From: ANME-2 cluster archaeon
Lineage (GTDB): Archaea > Halobacteriota > Methanosarcinia > Methanosarcinales > Methanocomedenaceae
Direction: 5' to 3'
DNA: 57,744 nt
Assembly: GCA_014237145.1 (NCBI GenBank)
Contig: JAAXOC010000002.1
Location: forward strand, 1 to 57,744
The notes under the pieces were generated by a model, which saw only the letters and a program-made list of their open reading frames with translations, had not been told where the DNA came from and ran no database searches. Shown here piece after piece: positions 36,942 to 46,600 of the stretch (position 1 is its first letter; every line of letters starts with the position of its first letter). The translations under genes and the position numbers were made by a program.

Positions 36942-37311
36942 ATCAAAAGACGAAAGAAAACATAGTAAATTAATTCTACCAAAGAAGACTAAAATATGTA
37001 GAATGTCGAAATGTCAGATTATGAGACTTTTTATTGTTTTCTGGTTACACTTGATGATCAGTTCTGTTAACCGCGGATGAACACAGATACGATGCAGCAA
37101 ATCTGCGTTCATCTGCGTTTATCTGCGGTTCGTTATAGTTAAAAGACCAGAAAAAATTTAAAAGAATCGATTAGAATCAAAAACCAAACAATTCAAACAA
37201 ATATTTGCGGTGAACAAAATCATACACCGTAAAGGACGCCAAGGGCGCAAAGTGTTCAGGATATATATCAAAGATGTTATGTTCTTGACTATAATAAAGG
37301 AAGCACAATAA
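36942..37311. other. Intergenic region with dispersed repeat motifs
   Basis: No gene is present. It holds GAGACTTTTTATT at 37023, a block TCTGCGTTCATCTGCG plus TTTATCTGCGGTT at about 37103-37131, and CGCCAAGGGCGCAAAG near 37238. The second block is the reverse complement of the coding repeat in the GxxExxY genes at 38972 and 39252 and recurs at about 39735. It marks the left border of the R-M island. Confidence 0.6.
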
Positions 37312-38883
37312 ATGTCAAAAACAAACGGAAATGGTGAGAAAGAAAAATCCATGGAAAGCTGGATCTGGGGTGCAGCTTGCAGTATTAGAGGTGCGGCTGA
37401 TGCAGCTAAATTTAAAGAATACATTTTACCATTAATATTTGTAAAACGGCTGTGTGATGTGTTTGATGATGAGATCGATCGCATTGCAGAAAAAGTAAAA
37501 CGCAGAACCAAAGCCCTGCAATTGGTGGAACGTGATAAAAAATTGGTGCGTTTTTATCTGCCAATAAAGCCCAAAGACCCCGAAGAAGAAAGAACATGGG
37601 ATGTTATTAGAACGCTGTCTGATAAAATTGGAGAGAAACTCACCAATATTCTTCGTGATATAGCCAAAGAGAACAAAGACCTGCAGGGAATCATTGACCG
37701 TGTTGATTTTAATGCAACCACACACGGGCAGCGTGATATTGATGATGACCGTTTAAGCAAACTGATTGAAAAGATTACCGAGAAGCATTTGGGATTGAAA
37801 GATGTGGAGCCTGATATTATCGGGCGCAGTTATGAATACCTGATACGCAAGTTTGCCGAGGGCAGCGGAAAAAGTGCCGGAGAGTTCTACACACCTACCG
37901 AAGTGGGCTTTATCATGGCAAAGATAATGGATGCCGAGTCTGGCATGGAAATTTATGATCCCTGCTGCGGCAGCGGCGGTTTACTCATTAAATGCGAACT
38001 GGTGATGGAAGAAAAAATGGCTTTAAGCTCCAGAGAGAAATATGCACCACTTCAACTGCACGGACAGGAGTTTACGCCTGGCACCTGGGCTATGAGCAAA
38101 ATGAACATGGTGATACACGACATGGAGGGCGAAATTGAAATTGGCGACACATTGAAAAATCCCAAGTTCAAAGACGGTGGCAAACTGAAGACGTTTGACC
38201 GTGTGGTTGCAAATCCCATGTGGAACCAGAGCAAAGACAGCTTACCTTATATCAATGACGATTTTTTTATCAATGATGAATTGGAACGCTTCCCGGCAGG
38301 CCCTTGCGGGGGCAAGATTGACTGGGGCTGGATTCAGCATATTTACAGCAGCTTGAATGATGCAGGTAGGGGAGCCGTGGTACTGGATACGGGAGCCGCC
38401 AGCCGCGGCAGTGGAAATAAGGGGGGCAACAAAGAAAAAGAGTGCCGCAAATGGTTTGTTGAAAATGACCTGATCGAAGGTGTGATCTACCTGCCTGAAA
38501 ATTTGTTTTACAATACCTCTGCACCGGGAATTATTATTTTCCTTAACAAAGCCAAGCAGCACACAGACAAGATTTACCTGTTGCATGCCGGTAAAGAGTT
38601 TGAAAAGGGTGATCCGAAGAACTACATCACACAGGAAGGTATAGAACGCATTGCTGAAACCTATAAAGGTTTTAAAGAAGAAGTAAAATTTTCCCGTCTG
38701 GTTGAGAAGGATGAGATTGTAAAAAATGATTATAATATTTCTCCCAGCCGGTACATTCAGGTTAATGATGCCTACATCTACCGCCCCATTGAAGAGATTG
38801 TGGATGAACTTAGGGAACAGGAGAGTGAATATACTATTATTGATGCTGAAGTGAAAAACATTTTAGATAAATTGGGTGTATGA
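37312..38883 (+). CDS. hsdM: Type I restriction-modification DNA methyltransferase (HsdM)
   Basis: A 523-aa N6-adenine methyltransferase. The helical N-terminal domain covers residues 12-170. The SAM motif DPCCGSGG is at 216-223, and the catalytic motif IV reads NPMW at 301-304, a variant common in this HsdM subgroup. The C-terminus (YIQVNDAYIYRP on) is typical. HsdM works as M2S with HsdS, and as R2M2S with HsdR cuts unmodified DNA. Composition is more AT-rich than the core. The last 40 codons are repeated in part behind the gene by a tandem duplication. Confidence 0.95.
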   Translation: MSKTNGNGEKEKSMESWIWGAACSIRGAADAAKFKEYILPLIFVKRLCDVFDDEIDRIAEKVKRRTKALQLVERDKKLVRFYLPIKPKDPEEERTWDVIRTLSDKIGEKLTNILRDIAKENKDLQGIIDRVDFNATTHGQRDIDDDRLSKLIEKITEKHLGLKDVEPDIIGRSYEYLIRKFAEGSGKSAGEFYTPTEVGFIMAKIMDAESGMEIYDPCCGSGGLLIKCELVMEEKMALSSREKYAPLQLHGQEFTPGTWAMSKMNMVIHDMEGEIEIGDTLKNPKFKDGGKLKTFDRVVANPMWNQSKDSLPYINDDFFINDELERFPAGPCGGKIDWGWIQHIYSSLNDAGRGAVVLDTGAASRGSGNKGGNKEKECRKWFVENDLIEGVIYLPENLFYNTSAPGIIIFLNKAKQHTDKIYLLHAGKEFEKGDPKNYITQEGIERIAETYKGFKEEVKFSRLVEKDEIVKNDYNISPSRYIQVNDAYIYRPIEEIVDELREQESEYTIIDAEVKNILDKLGV

Positions 38884-39119
38884 TGGAAGGTTGTAGAATA
38901 TAGTGGAGTATTCGGTAAAAAATTATTGAATCTTTGATATGAGAATTGTGATTATGGACCATCGAGAAATGGAACCGCAGATAAACGCAGATGAACGCAG
39001 ATTGAATGTTATGTCTGAGGGAATTATAGGGGTAGCATTTGAAGTTAGCAATGTTCTTGGTGCAGGTTTTCTGGAGAAGGTCTATGAAAATGCCTTGAAT
39101 GTTGAGCTTAATTTGAGAG
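38846..39119 (+). repeat. Tandem duplication, unit 1 (hsdM tail plus GxxExxY start)
   Basis: Bases 38846-39119 align with 39120-39400 (ATTGATGCTGAAGTGAAAAA at the start of each). The unit covers the last 13 codons of hsdM, the following gap and the first part of the GxxExxY gene. Units differ at scattered sites, so the duplication is not brand new. Confidence 0.85.
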
Positions 39120-39124
39120 ATTGA
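38939..39124 (+). pseudogene. GxxExxY protein, truncated by tandem duplication
   Basis: The frame encodes the N-terminal 60 residues of a GxxExxY protein (GVAFEVSNVLGAGFLEKVYE with the GFLEKVY signature) and is cut where the second duplication unit starts. The nuclease-like core present in the next copy (EIIIEVKAV) is missing, so it is probably not functional. Confidence 0.8.
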
Positions 39125-39219
39125 TGCTGAAGTGAAAAATATTTTACAAAAATTTGGTGTATGATGGATGGTTGTAGAATATAGCAAAGTACTTGATAAA
39201 AATTTATTGAATCATTGAT

Positions 39220-39645
39220 ATGGCAGTTGATATTATGGAATATAGAAAAATGGAACCGCAGATAAACGCAGATGAACGCAGATTGAATGCTATGTCGGAG
39301 GAGATTATAGGGGCGGCATTTGAAGTTAGCAATGTTCTTGGTGCGGGTTTTCTGGAGAAGGTTTATGAAAATGCCTTGAATCTTGAACTTAATTTTAGGG
39401 GAATAAAAACACTTCAACAGGCGCCATTAAAGGTATTTTATAAGGAAGAATTGGTAGGAGACTACATAGCAGATATTTTAGTTGAAAATGAAATCATAAT
39501 TGAAGTTAAGGCTGTAAAGGAAATCGATACAGTACATTTAGCCCAATGCATGAACTATCTAAGAATAACAGGGCTGAAACTTTGCCTTTTGTTAAATTTC
39601 AGTAAACCAAGGGTAGAGATTAAAAGGGTTGTGAATGGCATTTAA
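39220..39645 (+). CDS. GxxExxY protein (PD-(D/E)XK-like)
   Basis: A 141-aa protein named for its GFLEKVYENAL motif near residue 48. The central part has GDYIADILVENEIIIEVKAV, a D...ExK pattern of the PD-(D/E)XK nuclease fold, so a nuclease or a degenerate relative is likely. The N-terminus carries the repetitive EPQINADERRLN peptide, which recurs in many members of this family and is encoded by a DNA repeat also found outside genes nearby. It sits between hsdM and hsdS. The job in the R-M island, if any, is unknown. Confidence 0.8.
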   Translation: MAVDIMEYRKMEPQINADERRLNAMSEEIIGAAFEVSNVLGAGFLEKVYENALNLELNFRGIKTLQQAPLKVFYKEELVGDYIADILVENEIIIEVKAVKEIDTVHLAQCMNYLRITGLKLCLLLNFSKPRVEIKRVVNGI

Positions 39646-39798
39646 ATTTGTGGTGACTGATGAGTGTAAATAGAAATCAATCAAAAATAATCCCAAAACC
39701 ACTGTATTTACAATGGATTAATCCAGTGCAACAAATCTGCGTTCATCTGCGTTTATCTGCGGTTAATATTTTCTTGATTATTATTTAGTTGGGGTAGG
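39646..39798. repeat. Intergenic region with inverted copy of the GxxExxY coding repeat
   Basis: CTGCGTTCATCTGCG followed by TTTATCTGCGGTTAA at about 39737-39766 is the reverse complement of the N-terminal GxxExxY coding repeat. No gene is seen. Confidence 0.6.
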
Positions 39799-41088
39799 AT
39801 GACAGAGTGGATAAGAATTGAATTAGAAAAAGTATGTTCAAAAGTGGGTAGCAATTATCAACCAAAAGAATCGAGTAATCTACCTTATGTTGGCCTTGAG
39901 CATATTGAATCTGAAAAATCAATGTTGACAAATCATGGATTTGAAAGTGAGATAAAAAGTTCTAAAACAATGTTCAAAAAAGGTCAAATTCTTTATGGAA
40001 AACTTCGACCATATTTGGATAAAGCTGTTATTGCCCCTTTCGATGGCATTTGTTCAACTGACATTCTCGTCTTTGATAGTAATACTGAATCTATGAATGA
40101 ATTTCTGATTCATTTAATACATAGCCAAGAGTTTATAGATTATGCCAAAGCCACCACTAACGGTGTTCAACATCCAAGAACTTCATGGAATTCTCTAAGA
40201 CAATTTGATTTTTTACTCCCTCCTCTCCCCGAACAGCGCAAAATCGCCCACGTATTAAGCAAGGTGCAAAAAGCTATCGAGCAGCAGGACAAGCTCATCC
40301 GCACCACCACCGAGCTGAAAAAAGCTCTCATGCAGAAACTCTTTACTGAAGGCACCAGAGGCGAACCCCAGAGAGAAAGCGAAATCGGTTTAGTACCGGA
40401 GAGTTGGAAGGTAAAACTGTTTTCAGAAATTTTTAAAATTATTAAAACCCAATCTCATTCCAGAAATAAATTAACCTATGAAAAAACAGATACTAAGATT
40501 TTAAATATTCACTATGGTGATATTCATGCTAAATTTAAAGACAACATCGTTGATTTAGAATTAGAAGAAGTTCTTTATATAATTGATGAGTATGTTGATG
40601 AAAACAAAAATAACCTTTTGAGAGATGGAGATATCGTAATTGCTGATGCAAGTGAAGATTTAATTGATATTGGAAAGTGTATTGAATTAAAAAATGTAAA
40701 AAATAAAAAAATTATTGGTGGGTTACACACCATAGTCGCGAGAGATAAAAATAACTTGATTCAAAAAGGGTTCGGAGCATATATTTTTAAGAATAAATAT
40801 GTTTCTACTGAAATAAGGTTAATTGCAACTGGTATTTCTGTTTATGGAATTTCAAAAGGAAATTTACTCAAAATGTTAATACCAATTCCGCCAGCACAAG
40901 AACAAGTTGAAATTGCAGAAACAATGGATAGATGCAATAAAAAAATCTTTTATCACCAAAAGAAAAAACAAACCCTCACCGACTTATTTAAAACCCTGCT
41001 GCACGAGCTGATGACCGGGCAGCGCAGGGTGCATGATCTGGATTTTGATGGGATAATGAAGGAATATAATACAAATAAGAGGTGTTAG
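39799..41088 (+). CDS. hsdS: Type I restriction-modification specificity subunit (HsdS)
   Basis: A 429-aa protein with two target-recognition domains, each ended by a conserved coiled-coil. TRD1 covers residues 1-135 and is closed by LPPLPEQRKIAHVLSKVQ at about 140. TRD2 covers about 200-360, followed by IPPAQEQVEIAETMDRC near 366 and the final HELMTGQRRV. HsdS chooses the bipartite target of the complex. The spacer helices look intact. The next gene starts 4 bp after the stop. Confidence 0.95.
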   Translation: MTEWIRIELEKVCSKVGSNYQPKESSNLPYVGLEHIESEKSMLTNHGFESEIKSSKTMFKKGQILYGKLRPYLDKAVIAPFDGICSTDILVFDSNTESMNEFLIHLIHSQEFIDYAKATTNGVQHPRTSWNSLRQFDFLLPPLPEQRKIAHVLSKVQKAIEQQDKLIRTTTELKKALMQKLFTEGTRGEPQRESEIGLVPESWKVKLFSEIFKIIKTQSHSRNKLTYEKTDTKILNIHYGDIHAKFKDNIVDLELEEVLYIIDEYVDENKNNLLRDGDIVIADASEDLIDIGKCIELKNVKNKKIIGGLHTIVARDKNNLIQKGFGAYIFKNKYVSTEIRLIATGISVYGISKGNLLKMLIPIPPAQEQVEIAETMDRCNKKIFYHQKKKQTLTDLFKTLLHELMTGQRRVHDLDFDGIMKEYNTNKRC

Positions 41089-41092
41089 GATA

Positions 41093-43672
41093 TTGAACAG
41101 CATAAATCATATTGAATTATATGAACATTTAAAAAAATTCCACAATTTGACGGATAAATTGAATTTTATTCAACAAAATAACATCAAACCCTCTTATAAA
41201 CTATTATTTGATTTTTATGAGAATCAAAGTCAACAATTGACTGTATTTTTTAAAGCAGAATACTATAAATTATTAAAAGATGTCATACTTATCAATAAAC
41301 CTAAAACTATGCTTGATCCTTTCTGTGGGTTGGGCACTTTGTTGTTTCATCTTCCAAAAGAAATTACATTACATGGTCTTAATGTAAATAAATCTGAAGC
41401 TAAAACTGCACATTATTTTAATCCAAATGCTAAAATCGAATGTAAGGATGCGTTTAATGAGACCTTCAATACTACTTATGATTGCATTGCTTCAATCTTG
41501 ATTCCATTTGGTCAAAAACATAATAATTTAAGCAAATTAACTTTGAAACTTCTCAATAGCTTGAATGATAACGGAAGTTTATTTCTAACGGTTCCTTCTA
41601 ATTTTCTAAGTGCAACAGCTTTTCATAATATTAGAAAATCAATCTTGAAGGAATATAGTCTTGAATTTATTGCTGAATTACCAAGAAATAGATTTCAAGG
41701 AATAAAATTTAATTTAATACATATAAAAAACCAAAAACAACGCAGCAATGTATTACTTACTATAATAGATGATTACGATAAAAATCAAATAATAAGTGAT
41801 TATGTTAACCAAAAAGGTCAATTTTGGATTCCACAGAATCAACTAATTCACCGCTGGGATAGAAACTTCCATGATCCAAAATATTTAGAGATTGAAAATG
41901 AGTTAAATAAACAAGATACAAAGCCACTTGATGAAATATCGGAAGAAATTCGATTTGGGATTCATATTCCTGCGGAATACAGAAAAGATAAAGGTGATTA
42001 CTTAGTACTTACCCCCGGTAATATTAAATCGAATTCATTGATTATTAGTGAGCGCCAATATTATTGTAATGCAGAGGATAATAAGAACATACGGAATTTT
42101 AATCGGGTAATTCTTAAACCTGACGACATACTTCTTTCTTTATTTGGTCAAACGTTTAAATTATACATATACAATGAAAACGATCCTAAAGCAGTTGCAA
42201 ACCAAAATTTTGCTATTATTAGAGCATGTGATAATAAATATATTAAAGCATACCTTGAAAGTGAAACAGGATATAATGCATTTCTACAACAAGCCCAAAG
42301 AAGAAGTAGTGGAACGACTATTCAAAAGCTAACATTATCTGATTTACGAAAAATTAAAGTTCCCATTTTACCATATGAACAGCTTAACGATCTAATTCCA
42401 GAACCGGATAAATTAACATCCTTTTCTGAATCTAAAATTGCCTTAGTTCTGGAAGAAAAACTCAAAGAAAAGGGATGGTCAATTAAAAGGGAATATAGAG
42501 TAAATAATATAATCATAGATTTAGCTTTATGTATTGAAGATAAGCCTATTGGGCTGGTGGAAATAAAACAATATAAATCAGATCTTGATATAAGCCAAAT
42601 AGAAAATCAACTAAAGCATTTAATTAATACGACTGGCTTTGAACTTGCATTCACATATTTTAATAATCAATTATTTGAATATAATGGAATTGAATTTATT
42701 CCAATTGAAGATTTTCCTTCAATAAATAAGGAATTAAAAAACAGATTTGAAGTTCAAGAATCTGTATCTATTTATCAAAGTCAGCCTTCGAGTTATGCTA
42801 CAAAATTTATGTTAGAGATTATTGGTTTACAAATTCAAAAAATGAGTTCAGACATTAAGGCAATTAAAGAGACAACTAACAGGACGGAAGAAAAAATAGA
42901 TTTAATTATTGATTTGGTTTCAGATTTAAATGAAGAGTTTAGAAATATAAAAAGCGAACCATTTGAAATAGAAGAAAAACTTATTTTATTTAATAAAGAA
43001 CTTGATGAAAAAATAAGAGAATTGCAAAATCAAAAACAGGATCAATTAGATAAGTATATAGAGATAGTAAAATCTTGGTTAAGCTATGATTGGGAAAGAT
43101 TAGACGAATTAAGTAAACAATATTTACCTTCAGCGGAATTTATTTTTTCACAATTATCAAATCTTACTAATACCGATTTTTCTCCTTTTATCATACAATA
43201 TTGCAGGGCTTTAGAGACTGAATTATTAAATAAGGTCTTTAAGGCATATATAGATGAACTCAAGGCAAAAAACACTAACATAGAAGATAAATTTGCATGG
43301 GATTTCGAAAAGAAAGAAAATGGTAAACACAATAATGAAAATACATTTAAATTAGCCAAACATATACAAAAATGCTTAGATATAGACAGATCTGAATGGT
43401 TCTTTGAATTGGGAACCATGGAAGTCAATTTACGCTATTTAACAGGAAAAACTTCCAGAAAAAGCCCAATACTTGCTGATTTAAAGAAGTTCTTGCTTAC
43501 TTACTTTGAAGAAAACATTCTTGAATTAGAATTTTTAAATGAATTAAATCGCATTACTAAAGAATATAGAAACCGAGCAGCTCATTCCAATATAATAACT
43601 TTACATGAAGCAAAAAAAGGAAGAACAGAAATCAAAGAATTATTAAAGCAATTCTTTGAGTTTTATAAATAG
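41093..43672 (+). CDS. Multidomain protein: degenerate methyltransferase, TRD-like, PD-(D/E)XK, coiled coil, HEPN-like
   Basis: An 859-aa protein between hsdS and hsdR. Residues 50-215 resemble an N6-adenine methyltransferase with SAM motif DPFCGLG at 75-81, but motif IV reads LIPF (136-139) in place of NPPF, so catalysis is doubtful. Residues 270-430 resemble an HsdS recognition domain (LDEISEEIRFG, ILLSLFG, KLTLSDLRKIKVPILPYEQ). Residues 445-545 show a PD-(D/E)XK pattern (Asp476 in IIIDLAL; Glu490-x-Lys492 in GLVEIKQY). Residues 575-660 form a coiled coil. The rest is helical and ends with YRNRAAH (Arg826, His831), an R-x4-H motif of HEPN RNases. It is flanked by gaps of 4 and 3 bp, so it belongs to the operon. 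I know no described protein with this order. HEPN and nuclease calls are by motif only. Confidence 0.6.
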   Translation: MNSINHIELYEHLKKFHNLTDKLNFIQQNNIKPSYKLLFDFYENQSQQLTVFFKAEYYKLLKDVILINKPKTMLDPFCGLGTLLFHLPKEITLHGLNVNKSEAKTAHYFNPNAKIECKDAFNETFNTTYDCIASILIPFGQKHNNLSKLTLKLLNSLNDNGSLFLTVPSNFLSATAFHNIRKSILKEYSLEFIAELPRNRFQGIKFNLIHIKNQKQRSNVLLTIIDDYDKNQIISDYVNQKGQFWIPQNQLIHRWDRNFHDPKYLEIENELNKQDTKPLDEISEEIRFGIHIPAEYRKDKGDYLVLTPGNIKSNSLIISERQYYCNAEDNKNIRNFNRVILKPDDILLSLFGQTFKLYIYNENDPKAVANQNFAIIRACDNKYIKAYLESETGYNAFLQQAQRRSSGTTIQKLTLSDLRKIKVPILPYEQLNDLIPEPDKLTSFSESKIALVLEEKLKEKGWSIKREYRVNNIIIDLALCIEDKPIGLVEIKQYKSDLDISQIENQLKHLINTTGFELAFTYFNNQLFEYNGIEFIPIEDFPSINKELKNRFEVQESVSIYQSQPSSYATKFMLEIIGLQIQKMSSDIKAIKETTNRTEEKIDLIIDLVSDLNEEFRNIKSEPFEIEEKLILFNKELDEKIRELQNQKQDQLDKYIEIVKSWLSYDWERLDELSKQYLPSAEFIFSQLSNLTNTDFSPFIIQYCRALETELLNKVFKAYIDELKAKNTNIEDKFAWDFEKKENGKHNNENTFKLAKHIQKCLDIDRSEWFFELGTMEVNLRYLTGKTSRKSPILADLKKFLLTYFEENILELEFLNELNRITKEYRNRAAHSNIITLHEAKKGRTEIKELLKQFFEFYK

Positions 43673-43675
43673 ATT

Positions 43676-46600
43676 ATGACAATACCAACTGAACATAAAA
43701 GCGTACAATCCCGCATACTAAAATATGCAAAGGAAATCGGCTGGGCAGTGGTTTCACAAAGCGAAGCCGAGCTGTGCAGAGGCTTTGATCCATCCGGCGC
43801 TTCACCCAGAGAAAGAGCCAAGCATGCTTCCCGGTTTTTCACTGATACCTTATTTGAAAAAGTAAAACAATTCAATCCAAAATTCAAAGACAGCAAAGAA
43901 GAACTCCTTCGCAAACTCGATCTGCCGTTACCCACCATTGCAGGCAACCGGGATTTTTTACAACACCTTCAAGGTGAAAAAACTTTTTTCAGCAAAGAAG
44001 AAAACCGTGAGTTTAACCTTATTCTGATAAACTATGACAAGCCAGACAAAAACATCTATGAAGTAACTGAAGAATATTATCTCTTCAACGGACAATATGC
44101 CAACCGGGAAGATGTGGTTTTTCTCATTAATGGCATTCCGGTTCTGGTTATTGAATGTAAGAACGCCACCAAAGACGAAGCGATTGCCATCGGCATAGAC
44201 CAGATCAGACGGTATCACCGCGAGACCCCTGAGTTTTTCGTTCCCCAGCAGATCTACACAGCAACAGAGAGTATTGGTTTTTCATATGGCGTGACCTGGA
44301 ATACCATCAAAAGAAATATTTTCAACTGGAAAGAAGAGGAAATCGGCAATCTGGAAGCAAAAATAAAATCGTTTTGCGATAAGCAGAACATACTTGATTA
44401 CCTAAAAAAGTTCATAATTTTTGCCGAGCAGAACGAAGAGTTAAACAAATACATCTTACGCCAGCACCAGAAAACAGCCGTTGAAAAAGTGGTGGAACGG
44501 GCAATTGACCCGGACAAGACAAGGGGTTTAGTGTGGCATACTCAGGGAAGCGGCAAAACCTACACCATGATAAAAACAGCCGAGTTGTTGTTTAAAGCTC
44601 CAGAAGCAGAAAAGCCTACTATTCTTTTATTGATTGACCGCAATGAGCTGGAAGACCAGATGCTCAAAAACCTCGATTCGGTCGGTGCAAAAAATGTGGT
44701 ACAGGCAGAGCGTATCAAAGACTTGCAAAAAATACTGAAAAACGATTACAGAGGAATAATCGTCAGCACGTTACATAAATTCAGGGATATGCCTGCTGAA
44801 GTTAATACTCGTAAAAATATTTATGTCTTGATTGATGAAGCCCACCGTACCACAGGAAGCGATTTGGGTAATTATCTGATGGCTGCTGTCCCCAATGCCA
44901 CCTTCATAGGTTTTACAGGTACACCCATTGACAAAACAGTTTACGGTAGAGGAACATTCAAAACCTTTGGTATAGAAGATAAATCAGGTTATCTGCATAA
45001 ATATTCCATTGCAGAAAGTATTGAAGACGGTACAACCTTACCCCTCTTTTACGGTGTGGCTCCAAACGAGCTATTAGTACCAAAAGAAATTTTAGAAAAA
45101 GAATTTCTCAACCTGGCGGAAGCTTATGGAGTAAATGACATTGAGGAATTGAATAAAATTCTGGAACGTGCTGTAAATACCCGTAACTTTTTGAAAGGAC
45201 AGGAACGAGTAGAAAAGGTAGCTGAATATGTAGCAAAGCATTACACAGAAAATGTGGAGCCAATGGGCTATAAGGCATTCTTAGTTGGGGTTGACCGTCC
45301 GGCATGTGCCATGTATAAAAAAGCGTTAGATAAATTCCTGCCACCTGAATATTCAGAAGTAGTCTATACAGGAAATAACAATGATACACCAGATTTAAAG
45401 AAATATCACATTGACAAGAAAAAGGAAAAGGAAATCCGAAAGAAGTTCACCAAAATAGAAGAACAACCGAAAATCCTGATCGTTACTGAAAAACTGTTAA
45501 CTGGATTTGATGCGCCAATTTTATACGCCATGTATCTGGATAAACCCATGCGTGACCATACTCTTCTTCAAGCCATTGCAAGGGTAAACAGACCATATGA
45601 GAACGAAGAAAAGGACATGATAAAGCCCCATGGCTTTGTCTTGGACTTTGTAGGCATATTTGAAAATCTTGAAAAAGCCCTTGCATTTGACAGCGACGAA
45701 ATAAATGCGATAGTAAAGGATATTCAATTGCTGAAACATTTATTCAAGGCAAACATGGAAGAAAAGGTTCCTCCATACTTGCAACTATTAAAATATGGGT
45801 TTAACGACAAAGACACTGATAATCTCATTGCATACTTCAGGGATAAATCCAAACGAAAAGAATTTTTCAAATTATACAAAGAGGTGGAAATGCTATACGA
45901 GATCATTTCACCTGACAAATTCCTGAGACCTTACATTGATGATTATGCTACACTTTCTGCCATTTATAAAATTGTAAGAAATGCTTACACAAAAAGAATA
46001 CAGGTTGACAGGGAATTTCAAAGAAAAACCAATGAGCTGATCCAAGAAAAAATTGGCATGGAAAATTTGCAGCAAACCTATGAATTCTTTGAGATCAATG
46101 AAGATACAATTCAAAAAATAAAAGAAAACCAAAGCAATTACAATACACGGGTAATCAACCTGGTTAAGAGTATTGAAAAAATTGCAGAGGATAATTCCGA
46201 TGATCCATTTTTAATTGGTTTGCTGGAAAGAGCCGCACAGGTAGAAGAACACTATGAAGACAGACAAATCAGCACACAGGAAGCATTAGAAGAAATTAAA
46301 AAGATTTGTGAAGATGACATACAAAGGAAAAAGGAACAGGCAGAAAAAGGATTTGATGGCTTAACATTCTTCATTTACCGTACACTTCTTGACAAAGATA
46401 TCAAAAATGCAGATGAAATAACCAGGCAGATTAAAGCAGAGTTTATGAATAATCCGAATTGGAAAACAAGCGAAAAGGAATTGAGAGATTTAAGAAAAGG
46501 AGCAACTTTTGCAGTACTTAACGAAGAAGAGGATATTGACAAAGCTGCCGTCATTGTAGAAGAATTATTTTATCACCTATTCAAAGCCTACGATCTATGA
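43676..46600 (+). CDS. hsdR: Type I restriction-modification endonuclease and translocase (HsdR)
   Basis: A 974-aa protein. The N-terminal nuclease has Asp146 in the EDVVFL strand and Glu160-x-Lys162 (VIECKNA). The SF2 motor follows, with Walker A HTQGSGKT at 289-296, DEAH at 387-390, GFTGTP and the LLQAIARVNRPY motif VI. The C-terminal region is helical and binds the M-S core. Length is normal for the family. It starts 3 bp after the multidomain gene. Its TGA overlaps the ATG of the YgjP gene. Confidence 0.95.
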   Translation: MTIPTEHKSVQSRILKYAKEIGWAVVSQSEAELCRGFDPSGASPRERAKHASRFFTDTLFEKVKQFNPKFKDSKEELLRKLDLPLPTIAGNRDFLQHLQGEKTFFSKEENREFNLILINYDKPDKNIYEVTEEYYLFNGQYANREDVVFLINGIPVLVIECKNATKDEAIAIGIDQIRRYHRETPEFFVPQQIYTATESIGFSYGVTWNTIKRNIFNWKEEEIGNLEAKIKSFCDKQNILDYLKKFIIFAEQNEELNKYILRQHQKTAVEKVVERAIDPDKTRGLVWHTQGSGKTYTMIKTAELLFKAPEAEKPTILLLIDRNELEDQMLKNLDSVGAKNVVQAERIKDLQKILKNDYRGIIVSTLHKFRDMPAEVNTRKNIYVLIDEAHRTTGSDLGNYLMAAVPNATFIGFTGTPIDKTVYGRGTFKTFGIEDKSGYLHKYSIAESIEDGTTLPLFYGVAPNELLVPKEILEKEFLNLAEAYGVNDIEELNKILERAVNTRNFLKGQERVEKVAEYVAKHYTENVEPMGYKAFLVGVDRPACAMYKKALDKFLPPEYSEVVYTGNNNDTPDLKKYHIDKKKEKEIRKKFTKIEEQPKILIVTEKLLTGFDAPILYAMYLDKPMRDHTLLQAIARVNRPYENEEKDMIKPHGFVLDFVGIFENLEKALAFDSDEINAIVKDIQLLKHLFKANMEEKVPPYLQLLKYGFNDKDTDNLIAYFRDKSKRKEFFKLYKEVEMLYEIISPDKFLRPYIDDYATLSAIYKIVRNAYTKRIQVDREFQRKTNELIQEKIGMENLQQTYEFFEINEDTIQKIKENQSNYNTRVINLVKSIEKIAEDNSDDPFLIGLLERAAQVEEHYEDRQISTQEALEEIKKICEDDIQRKKEQAEKGFDGLTFFIYRTLLDKDIKNADEITRQIKAEFMNNPNWKTSEKELRDLRKGATFAVLNEEEDIDKAAVIVEELFYHLFKAYDL

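Follow-up and report, generated by a model that had tools for sequence, protein, structure and literature searches.

The 57,744 nucleotides (nt) of DNA analysed here (the window) come from an ANME-2 cluster archaeon (GenBank assembly GCA_014237145.1, contig JAAXOC010000002.1, positions 1 to 57,744) and hold, between the type I restriction genes hsdM and hsdS, a gene for a protein of the GxxExxY family that is enclosed by two inverted copies of a short tandem repeat, termed arms below. The layout found here and in other genomes points to a very small type of mobile DNA element that has so far gone unrecognised. As far as sequence can tell, we lean towards the view that the GxxExxY gene and its two arms form a small insertion unit, probably a mobile palindrome resembling the repetitive extragenic palindromic (REP) sequences and their REP-associated tyrosine transposases (RAYTs), yet built on an unrelated nuclease. 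Genome comparison reveals the architecture of the unit, its dispersal, its presence or absence at the same sites and the co-variation of its arms with its protein.

Architecture of the Element

The whole element occupies 39254-39764 on the + strand (511 nt) and consists of a 5' arm (39254-39283, + strand), the gene, and a 3' arm (39735-39764, - strand) which is the 5' arm inverted, the two 30-nt arms being perfectly inverted and 451 nt apart. The 30-nt block has AACC in front of three CGCAGAT units at 10-nt spacing and occurs in the window in two sense and two inverted copies: GAACCGCAGATAAACGCAGATGAACGCAGATT is found on the + strand at 38972-39003 and 39253-39284, and its reverse complement is present without a mismatch at 37100-37131 and, over 31 nt, at 39734-39764. 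An earlier note on this DNA had described the block as coding for PQINADERR in two GxxExxY genes and as recurring in inverted copies without any gene. The copies are confirmed to the base, but only one of the genes is intact (39220-39645, + strand, GxxExxY/PDDEXK_3); it encodes 141 amino acids (aa) from its first ATG, with an ATG at 39250 also possible, and reads the 5' arm in frame as PQINADERR. The other, at 38939-39124 (+ strand, 61 aa), is a truncated 5' fragment that matches the profile over positions 3-37 of 116 (37 bits). It includes a 5' arm of its own (38973-39002) and is the product of a tandem duplication of 279 nt which begins within the end of hsdM. The first copy of this duplication (38839-39117, + strand) comprises the hsdM tail and the 5' part of GxxExxY, the second (39120-39398, + strand) extends into the intact gene, and the two are 88% identical. 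The same two-copy arrangement recurs in a congener (G004; L017/L028, C17).

The earlier note had also taken the copies at 37101 and 39735 as borders around hsdM and GxxExxY together. This does not hold, as both have the same orientation and so make no pair; the real pair, 39254/39735, encloses GxxExxY alone. The copy at 37101 is part of a separate solo palindrome without a gene (37069-37130, no strand assigned), with arms at 37069-37088 and 37101-37130 and a 12-nt loop, for which single-strand folding gave a minimum free energy of -17.5 kcal/mol (z -4.5, equalled by 0 of 200 shuffles). A further motif reported at 37238 is present and, by eye, represents units two and three of a lone arm of a sister subtype (37226-37252, + strand, ACCGTAAAG-GA-CGCCAAG-GG-CGCAAAG), with no partner seen nearby.

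The window protein matches TIGR04256 at 141.5 bits (cut-off 35) and PF13366 at 139.7 bits (cut-off 22), and has the D, E-x-K and Q-x-x-x-Y motif, of which D and E-x-K mark the PD-(D/E)XK superfamily. Across the conservation set, in which the frame was broken before the match end in 5 of 80 loci of the broad sample described below, D, E and Q are kept in 76/76 sequences, K in 75/76 and Y in 72. An AF2 model (mean pLDDT 95.2) has as its best PDB match SSO0001 (4ic1; E 4.3e-4, Z 9.4, root-mean-square deviation 3.4 over 99 residues), a Cas4 protein, followed by LHK-Exo of the lambda-type exonucleases (Z 6.5) and archaeal Hjc (Z 7.0). These fold matches stay at the superfamily level (Foldseek TM about 0.55), and a search by sequence returned no relatives with solved structures at E values up to 1. 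The predicted model has the fold of a nuclease, its active site being intact, and does not itself indicate a substrate.

A Palindrome Dispersed in the Host Genome

Searching the 2.97-Mb host genome (G000) with the degenerate arm pattern AACCRCRRAKN{1,3}CRCRRAKN{1,3}CRCRRAK gave 74 exact matches and none for the pattern read backwards; a looser CGCAGAT pattern gave 59 matches, compared with none for its control. Pairing was scored in 51 genome stretches around the matches, in the window and in two gene loci, a partner being defined by a score of at least 14 within 700 nt. An inward-facing inverted partner was found for 35 of the 74 arms, an outward-facing one for none. The loops between paired arms measure 6-22 nt (28 arms), 70 nt in a single case, and then 386, 451 and 576 nt (six arms), and all three of these long-loop pairs enclose a GxxExxY gene. 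Stop-free frames of at least 150 aa contain 6 of 65 arms as against 51% of random 30-mers from the same stretches, and frames of at least 200 aa contain 1 of 65 as against 35%. With so few arms inside stop-free frames, and with GxxExxY in the long loops, the repeat is therefore an extragenic palindrome whose loop the gene fills. The two arms of solo pairs in this genome were no closer to each other at their units than random pairs (10.8% vs 7.1%, 15 pairs).

The proposal of the earlier note that the block spreads as DNA and is merely tolerated as protein thus agrees well with the number of dispersed arms and their rarity in long frames; the second part follows from the start codon, which lies downstream of the arm in many relatives.

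The Same Layout in Other Genomes

Within the host family, both arms are present at 13 of 14 complete GxxExxY loci, the fourteenth running out at a contig end. Their subtypes (CACAGAG, CGCAGAG, CGCAGAT, CACGGAT and GACACAGATTTCAC) vary between loci and agree within a locus. Beyond the family, we took the best 80 of at least 569 relatives, from about 15 phyla as judged by record titles, a sample that therefore leans towards sequences resembling the query. Each gene was given a flank score, the best inverted match between the 300 nt on either side, with one locus (L037) excluded for its short flank. A score of at least 18 was reached by 40 of 79 GxxExxY loci, compared with 6 of 775 control open reading frames (ORFs) from the same loci and 16 of 469 mispaired flanks, and a score of at least 14 by 56 of 79, 13 of 775 and 50 of 469, respectively. 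The six control ORFs at 18 or above comprise two more GxxExxY genes, one frame antisense to one of these, two four-helix-bundle genes and one unassigned frame. In a class-wide archaeal sample, which excludes two loci at contig ends (L010, L219) and includes near-orthologues (L001/L007, L003/L017, L009/L012/L018), 27 of 36 loci reached 18.

The enrichment of the block near GxxExxY genes, on which the earlier note had made its case depend, is about 21-fold: of the arms that a regular-expression (regex) search found in the 80 loci, 126 lie no more than 300 nt from the genes and 58 are spread over the other 477 kb (shuffled sequence 0, reversed sequence 9). The arms are also oriented, with 47 sense and 19 antisense upstream, and 50 antisense and 10 sense downstream. 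Dispersed arms occur in 44 of the 50 genomes behind named loci, up to 206 in one, and the reversed pattern in none.

It may be asked whether GxxExxY is the cargo of palindromes that some other machinery spreads, such as an enzyme of the IS200/RAYT type, slippage during replication or a switch of template at hairpins; we hold this explanation to be rather improbable. Among 191 archaeal genomes at least 80% complete, arms occur in 47 of 50 with a GxxExxY gene above cut-off and also in 43 of 141 without one, as such a passenger would allow, and PF01797 (Y1_Tnp) is present in 140 of the 191. However, the odds ratio for the presence of arms is 36 with GxxExxY and only 2.8 with Y1_Tnp, one genus (g23) is rich in Y1_Tnp genes and almost without arms, and almost no other type of gene is found between arms. 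Label shuffling equalled the association of arms with GxxExxY in 1 of 10,000 trials within families; within genera it is weaker (184 of 10,000). RAYT as the driver was rejected, since arms in 75 of 140 genomes with Y1_Tnp and 15 of 51 without (p 0.003) make a far weaker link than that with GxxExxY. Carriage as phage or plasmid cargo was likewise rejected, a search with a single query protein having found GxxExxY in 0 of 50,697 phage and 8 of 72,556 plasmid records. One occurrence on a viral contig was confirmed, and the nine plasmid and viral loci have flank scores of 37, 18, 22.5, 11.5, 10.5, 10.5, 11, 12 and 23, so that 4 of 9 reach 18.

In the window the element lies between hsdM (37312-38883, + strand) and an hsdS-like gene (39799-41088, + strand), with hsdR (43676-46600, + strand) further on, and hsdM is also found upstream of GxxExxY in G004 (L017) and G007 (L010). 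Such neighbours would fit arms that act as operators of an autoregulated defence or toxin-antitoxin gene tied to the type I restriction locus; with most other copies adjoining unrelated genes, and with dozens of palindromes that have no gene to regulate, we find this very hard to believe. The idea that GxxExxY is a constant part of type I restriction was rejected on the same grounds, most neighbours being unrelated to hsd genes. The restriction operon of the window also encodes a protein of 859 aa (41093-43672) that no Pfam family matches at E 0.001 and that resembles specificity subunits only weakly.

Co-variation of Arms and Proteins

Arm similarity and protein similarity are correlated (Mantel 0.39, n=54, 0 of 2000 permutations) among loci with a score of at least 18, arms of at most 60 nt and an unbroken frame, and this holds in the broad (0.28, n=35) and archaeal (0.47, n=19) subsets, again with 0 of 2000 permutations each. 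In archaea, proteins of the FEVSNVLG type go with CRCAGAT arms, those of the QVHxTLG type with CRCAGAG arms, and those of the YKVHNTLG type with GACACAGATTTCAC or GACACGGAT arms.

The two arms of one gene-bearing locus (31 pairs) differ at 6.9% of unit positions, compared with 23.7% for random pairs, and at 49% of spacer positions, compared with 64.8%; the regex itself fixes part of each unit, and the random pairs were drawn under the same regex. Arms that agree at their units and diverge at their spacers point to recognition of the units, which recur about once per helical turn, rather than to selection for complete pairing of the stem. The same figures bear on the idea that the arms act as an RNA stem which releases the message of the gene from an operon, much as rRNA intervening sequences are excised by RNase III (PMC2672173). 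Several copies do lie inside strings of genes (hsdM-hsdS here, radA and the next gene in Bacteroidaceae). Nevertheless, whole-stem pairing is seemingly not kept when spacers differ so widely, and many solo palindromes have no gene to release, which makes this explanation a distant one.

Presence and Absence at Fixed Sites

The element is present in some genomes and missing from others at sites that can be recognised by their flanking genes. Upstream of the conserved gene next to L001, a GxxExxY element is present in G000 and G003, a 3' remnant with an arm in G009, and a short-loop solo palindrome with homologous flanks in G007; no element was seen in the stretch read for seven other genomes. 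The G000 and G007 sites were matched through flanks of 45-64 nt (equalled by 0 of 500 shuffles each), and a further arm lies just upstream in G007. At a site next to a cobalamin gene in another archaeal genus, an intact gene was found by profile at 3 of 26 readable orthologous sites, and among 11 sites inspected by eye three more have C-terminal remnants and one has arm-like remains. Upstream of a cobalamin-cluster gene, L233 and L244 have a different, GC-rich palindromic element apparently inside CGCAGAT-type arms (by eye), which would be in keeping with such palindromes as hot spots for insertion. In Bacteroidaceae, the junction between radA and the next gene holds an element in 5 of 30 loci and in B. 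finegoldii, with arms of three subtypes; at least 11 loci have a bare gap of about 4-50 nt, and four have arm-like remnants (by eye). The GxxExxY proteins at this junction are 48-59% identical to that of B. finegoldii, as against 83-92% for RadA (102 aa), and therefore either arrived repeatedly or evolve very fast.

These sites are where the strongest rival to a mobile unit is best weighed, namely that the palindromes are kept by other means and that GxxExxY is a homing-type nuclease which enters their loops: an empty palindrome would be cut, and its repair through the matching arms would copy the gene in. Both steps are conceivable, and on balance we judge them unlikely. A homing nuclease would account for a solo palindrome and a gene in the loop at one and the same site, for loops that are either short or long with nothing intermediate except the one of 70 nt, and for arms (74) that far outnumber complete elements (3). 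It does not readily account for an arm subtype that tracks the protein subtype across genomes, or for the empty Bacteroidaceae junctions, which are bare gaps in those 11 or more loci and not gene-less palindromes.

A Second Protein Family with Inverted Tandem Arms

Two of the six high-scoring control ORFs brought up a second family, the TIGR02436/PF05635 four-helix-bundle genes, which likewise lie between inverted tandem arrays, here of period 7 (L298-L309, L101:1400-1759, L059:644-1003 and L108:88-483). Among 12 plasmid loci, from 25 records, 11 reach a score of 18 and 12 a score of 14, compared with 6 of 132 and 11 of 132 mispaired flanks; of the four such genes in the GxxExxY-survey loci, three reach 18. 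The arm period is 7 or 14 in 15 of 15 four-helix-bundle arms and 8-10 in 34 of 37 GxxExxY arms, and therefore goes with the protein family.

The occurrence of this layout, with other arms, around an unrelated family is what keeps alive the idea that GxxExxY is mere cargo. Heptamer repeats are known in cyanobacteria. It is tempting to regard all of these as one broad prokaryotic class of tandem-armed palindromic elements, possibly including the cyanobacterial heptamers, in which one small gene would occupy the loop, the protein family would set the period, each protein would read its own arms and gene-less palindromes would be non-autonomous offspring; we put this forward tentatively, as a generalisation that falls somewhat short of probable.

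Some neighbours of the second family may be recorded here. cas1 adjoins 3 of the 12 plasmid four-helix-bundle genes (L299, L303, L307), two of which sit between cas2 and cas1, and in Monoglobus (L305) hsdS and hsdR have between them an unannotated match to the four-helix-bundle family, which may be compared with the GxxExxY gene of the window between hsdM and hsdS.

A Putative Mechanism and Its Difficulties

In the mechanism that we propose for the mobile GxxExxY unit, the element would be a palindrome with tandem 7-nt cores, about one DNA turn apart, in its arms and the gene of a restriction-fold nuclease in its loop, and the gene-less palindromes, with loops of 6-22 nt in the host, would be its non-autonomous form. 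The nuclease would recognise the repeated units of its cognate arms and cut arm ends or extruded hairpins, upon which the unit and its gene-less relatives would be copied or moved inside the genome, and the unit would on rare occasions pass to another genome. The binding and cutting of the units by the GxxExxY protein, and its role in causing their spread, are putative and are what we infer from the patterns above. Either the gene or the palindrome may have come first.

Several observations weigh against this proposal. In the broad sample, 39 of 79 loci score below 18, 23 of them below 14, and at 21 of 80 the regex finds no arm on either of the sides where one is expected; with so many loci lacking strong arms, the arms are either not obligate or have decayed. 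At least five arms are present in 25 of the 141 genomes without a GxxExxY gene above cut-off, one of which (G179) is 96% complete and has 53 arms. The sites compared showed neither a target-site duplication nor an intermediate, and at the empty radA junctions the gaps are so short that duplications cannot be read. The case for a nuclease as the driver is weakened by the similar layout of the four-helix-bundle genes, whose proteins are not known to be enzymes. We also know of no nuclease of the SSO0001/lambda-exonuclease/Hjc fold class that acts as a stand-alone mobiliser.

Relation to Known Systems and Significance

The closest parallel is with RAYTs. For these, PMC2817692 describes a gene between inverted repeats, dispersed gene-less hairpins, co-variation of gene and repeat, faster change than in neighbouring genes, and repeats that follow the gene, and a comparable spread of gene-bearing and gene-less palindromes has been proposed for RAYTs and REPINs (PMC2817692, PMC3116915). 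GxxExxY is similarly flanked by inverted copies of a palindromic repeat that is also dispersed as short gene-less hairpins, gene and repeat co-vary, repeats follow the presence of the gene, and the gene seems to change faster than its neighbours. Unlike RAYTs, the sole gene of the unit is a PD-(D/E)XK protein (PF13366) and not a Y1/HUH tyrosine transposase (PF01797), the arms are three-unit tandem arrays of period 8-10, and the system covers archaea and bacteria of about 15 phyla. The arms inspected by eye start with AACC or TTCACC, end in units and have neither the GTAG nor the CGTC tag, a tag that the title of PMC3733652 names.

Other known systems share fewer features. Like insertion sequences and their miniature inverted-repeat transposable elements (MITEs), the gene-bearing and gene-less forms have common terminal inverted repeats, but the unit has no DDE transposase and its GxxExxY gene occupies the space between the arms. 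With a small nuclease gene that lies within the sequence its product presumably recognises and is present or absent at a fixed site, the unit recalls homing endonucleases, although the site here is a dispersed family of palindromes rather than one conserved gene, and no intron or intein is involved. Intervening sequences of 23S rRNA are also hairpin-bounded inserts able to hold a small gene, and can bear one for the PF05635/TIGR02436 four-helix-bundle protein. Free-standing genes of that family have inverted tandem arms too, although the protein is unrelated to GxxExxY and the arms have a period of 7. Our literature search, outside which most subscription journals fell, returned nothing linking GxxExxY/PF13366 or four-helix-bundle genes to such repeats.

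GxxExxY proteins are found in many phyla and have no known function, and their link to the repeats supplies a candidate substrate. It also accounts for a widespread class of intergenic repeats, of the CACAGAG, CGCAGAT, CGCAAAG and CACGGAT types, which near GxxExxY often end up in translations as junk N-termini. The system follows the logic of REP and RAYT, with a different enzyme and different repeats. If the proposal is true, a restriction-fold enzyme would join the few enzymes that maintain populations of palindromic repeats, and the parallel layout of the four-helix-bundle genes suggests that a general principle may be at work.

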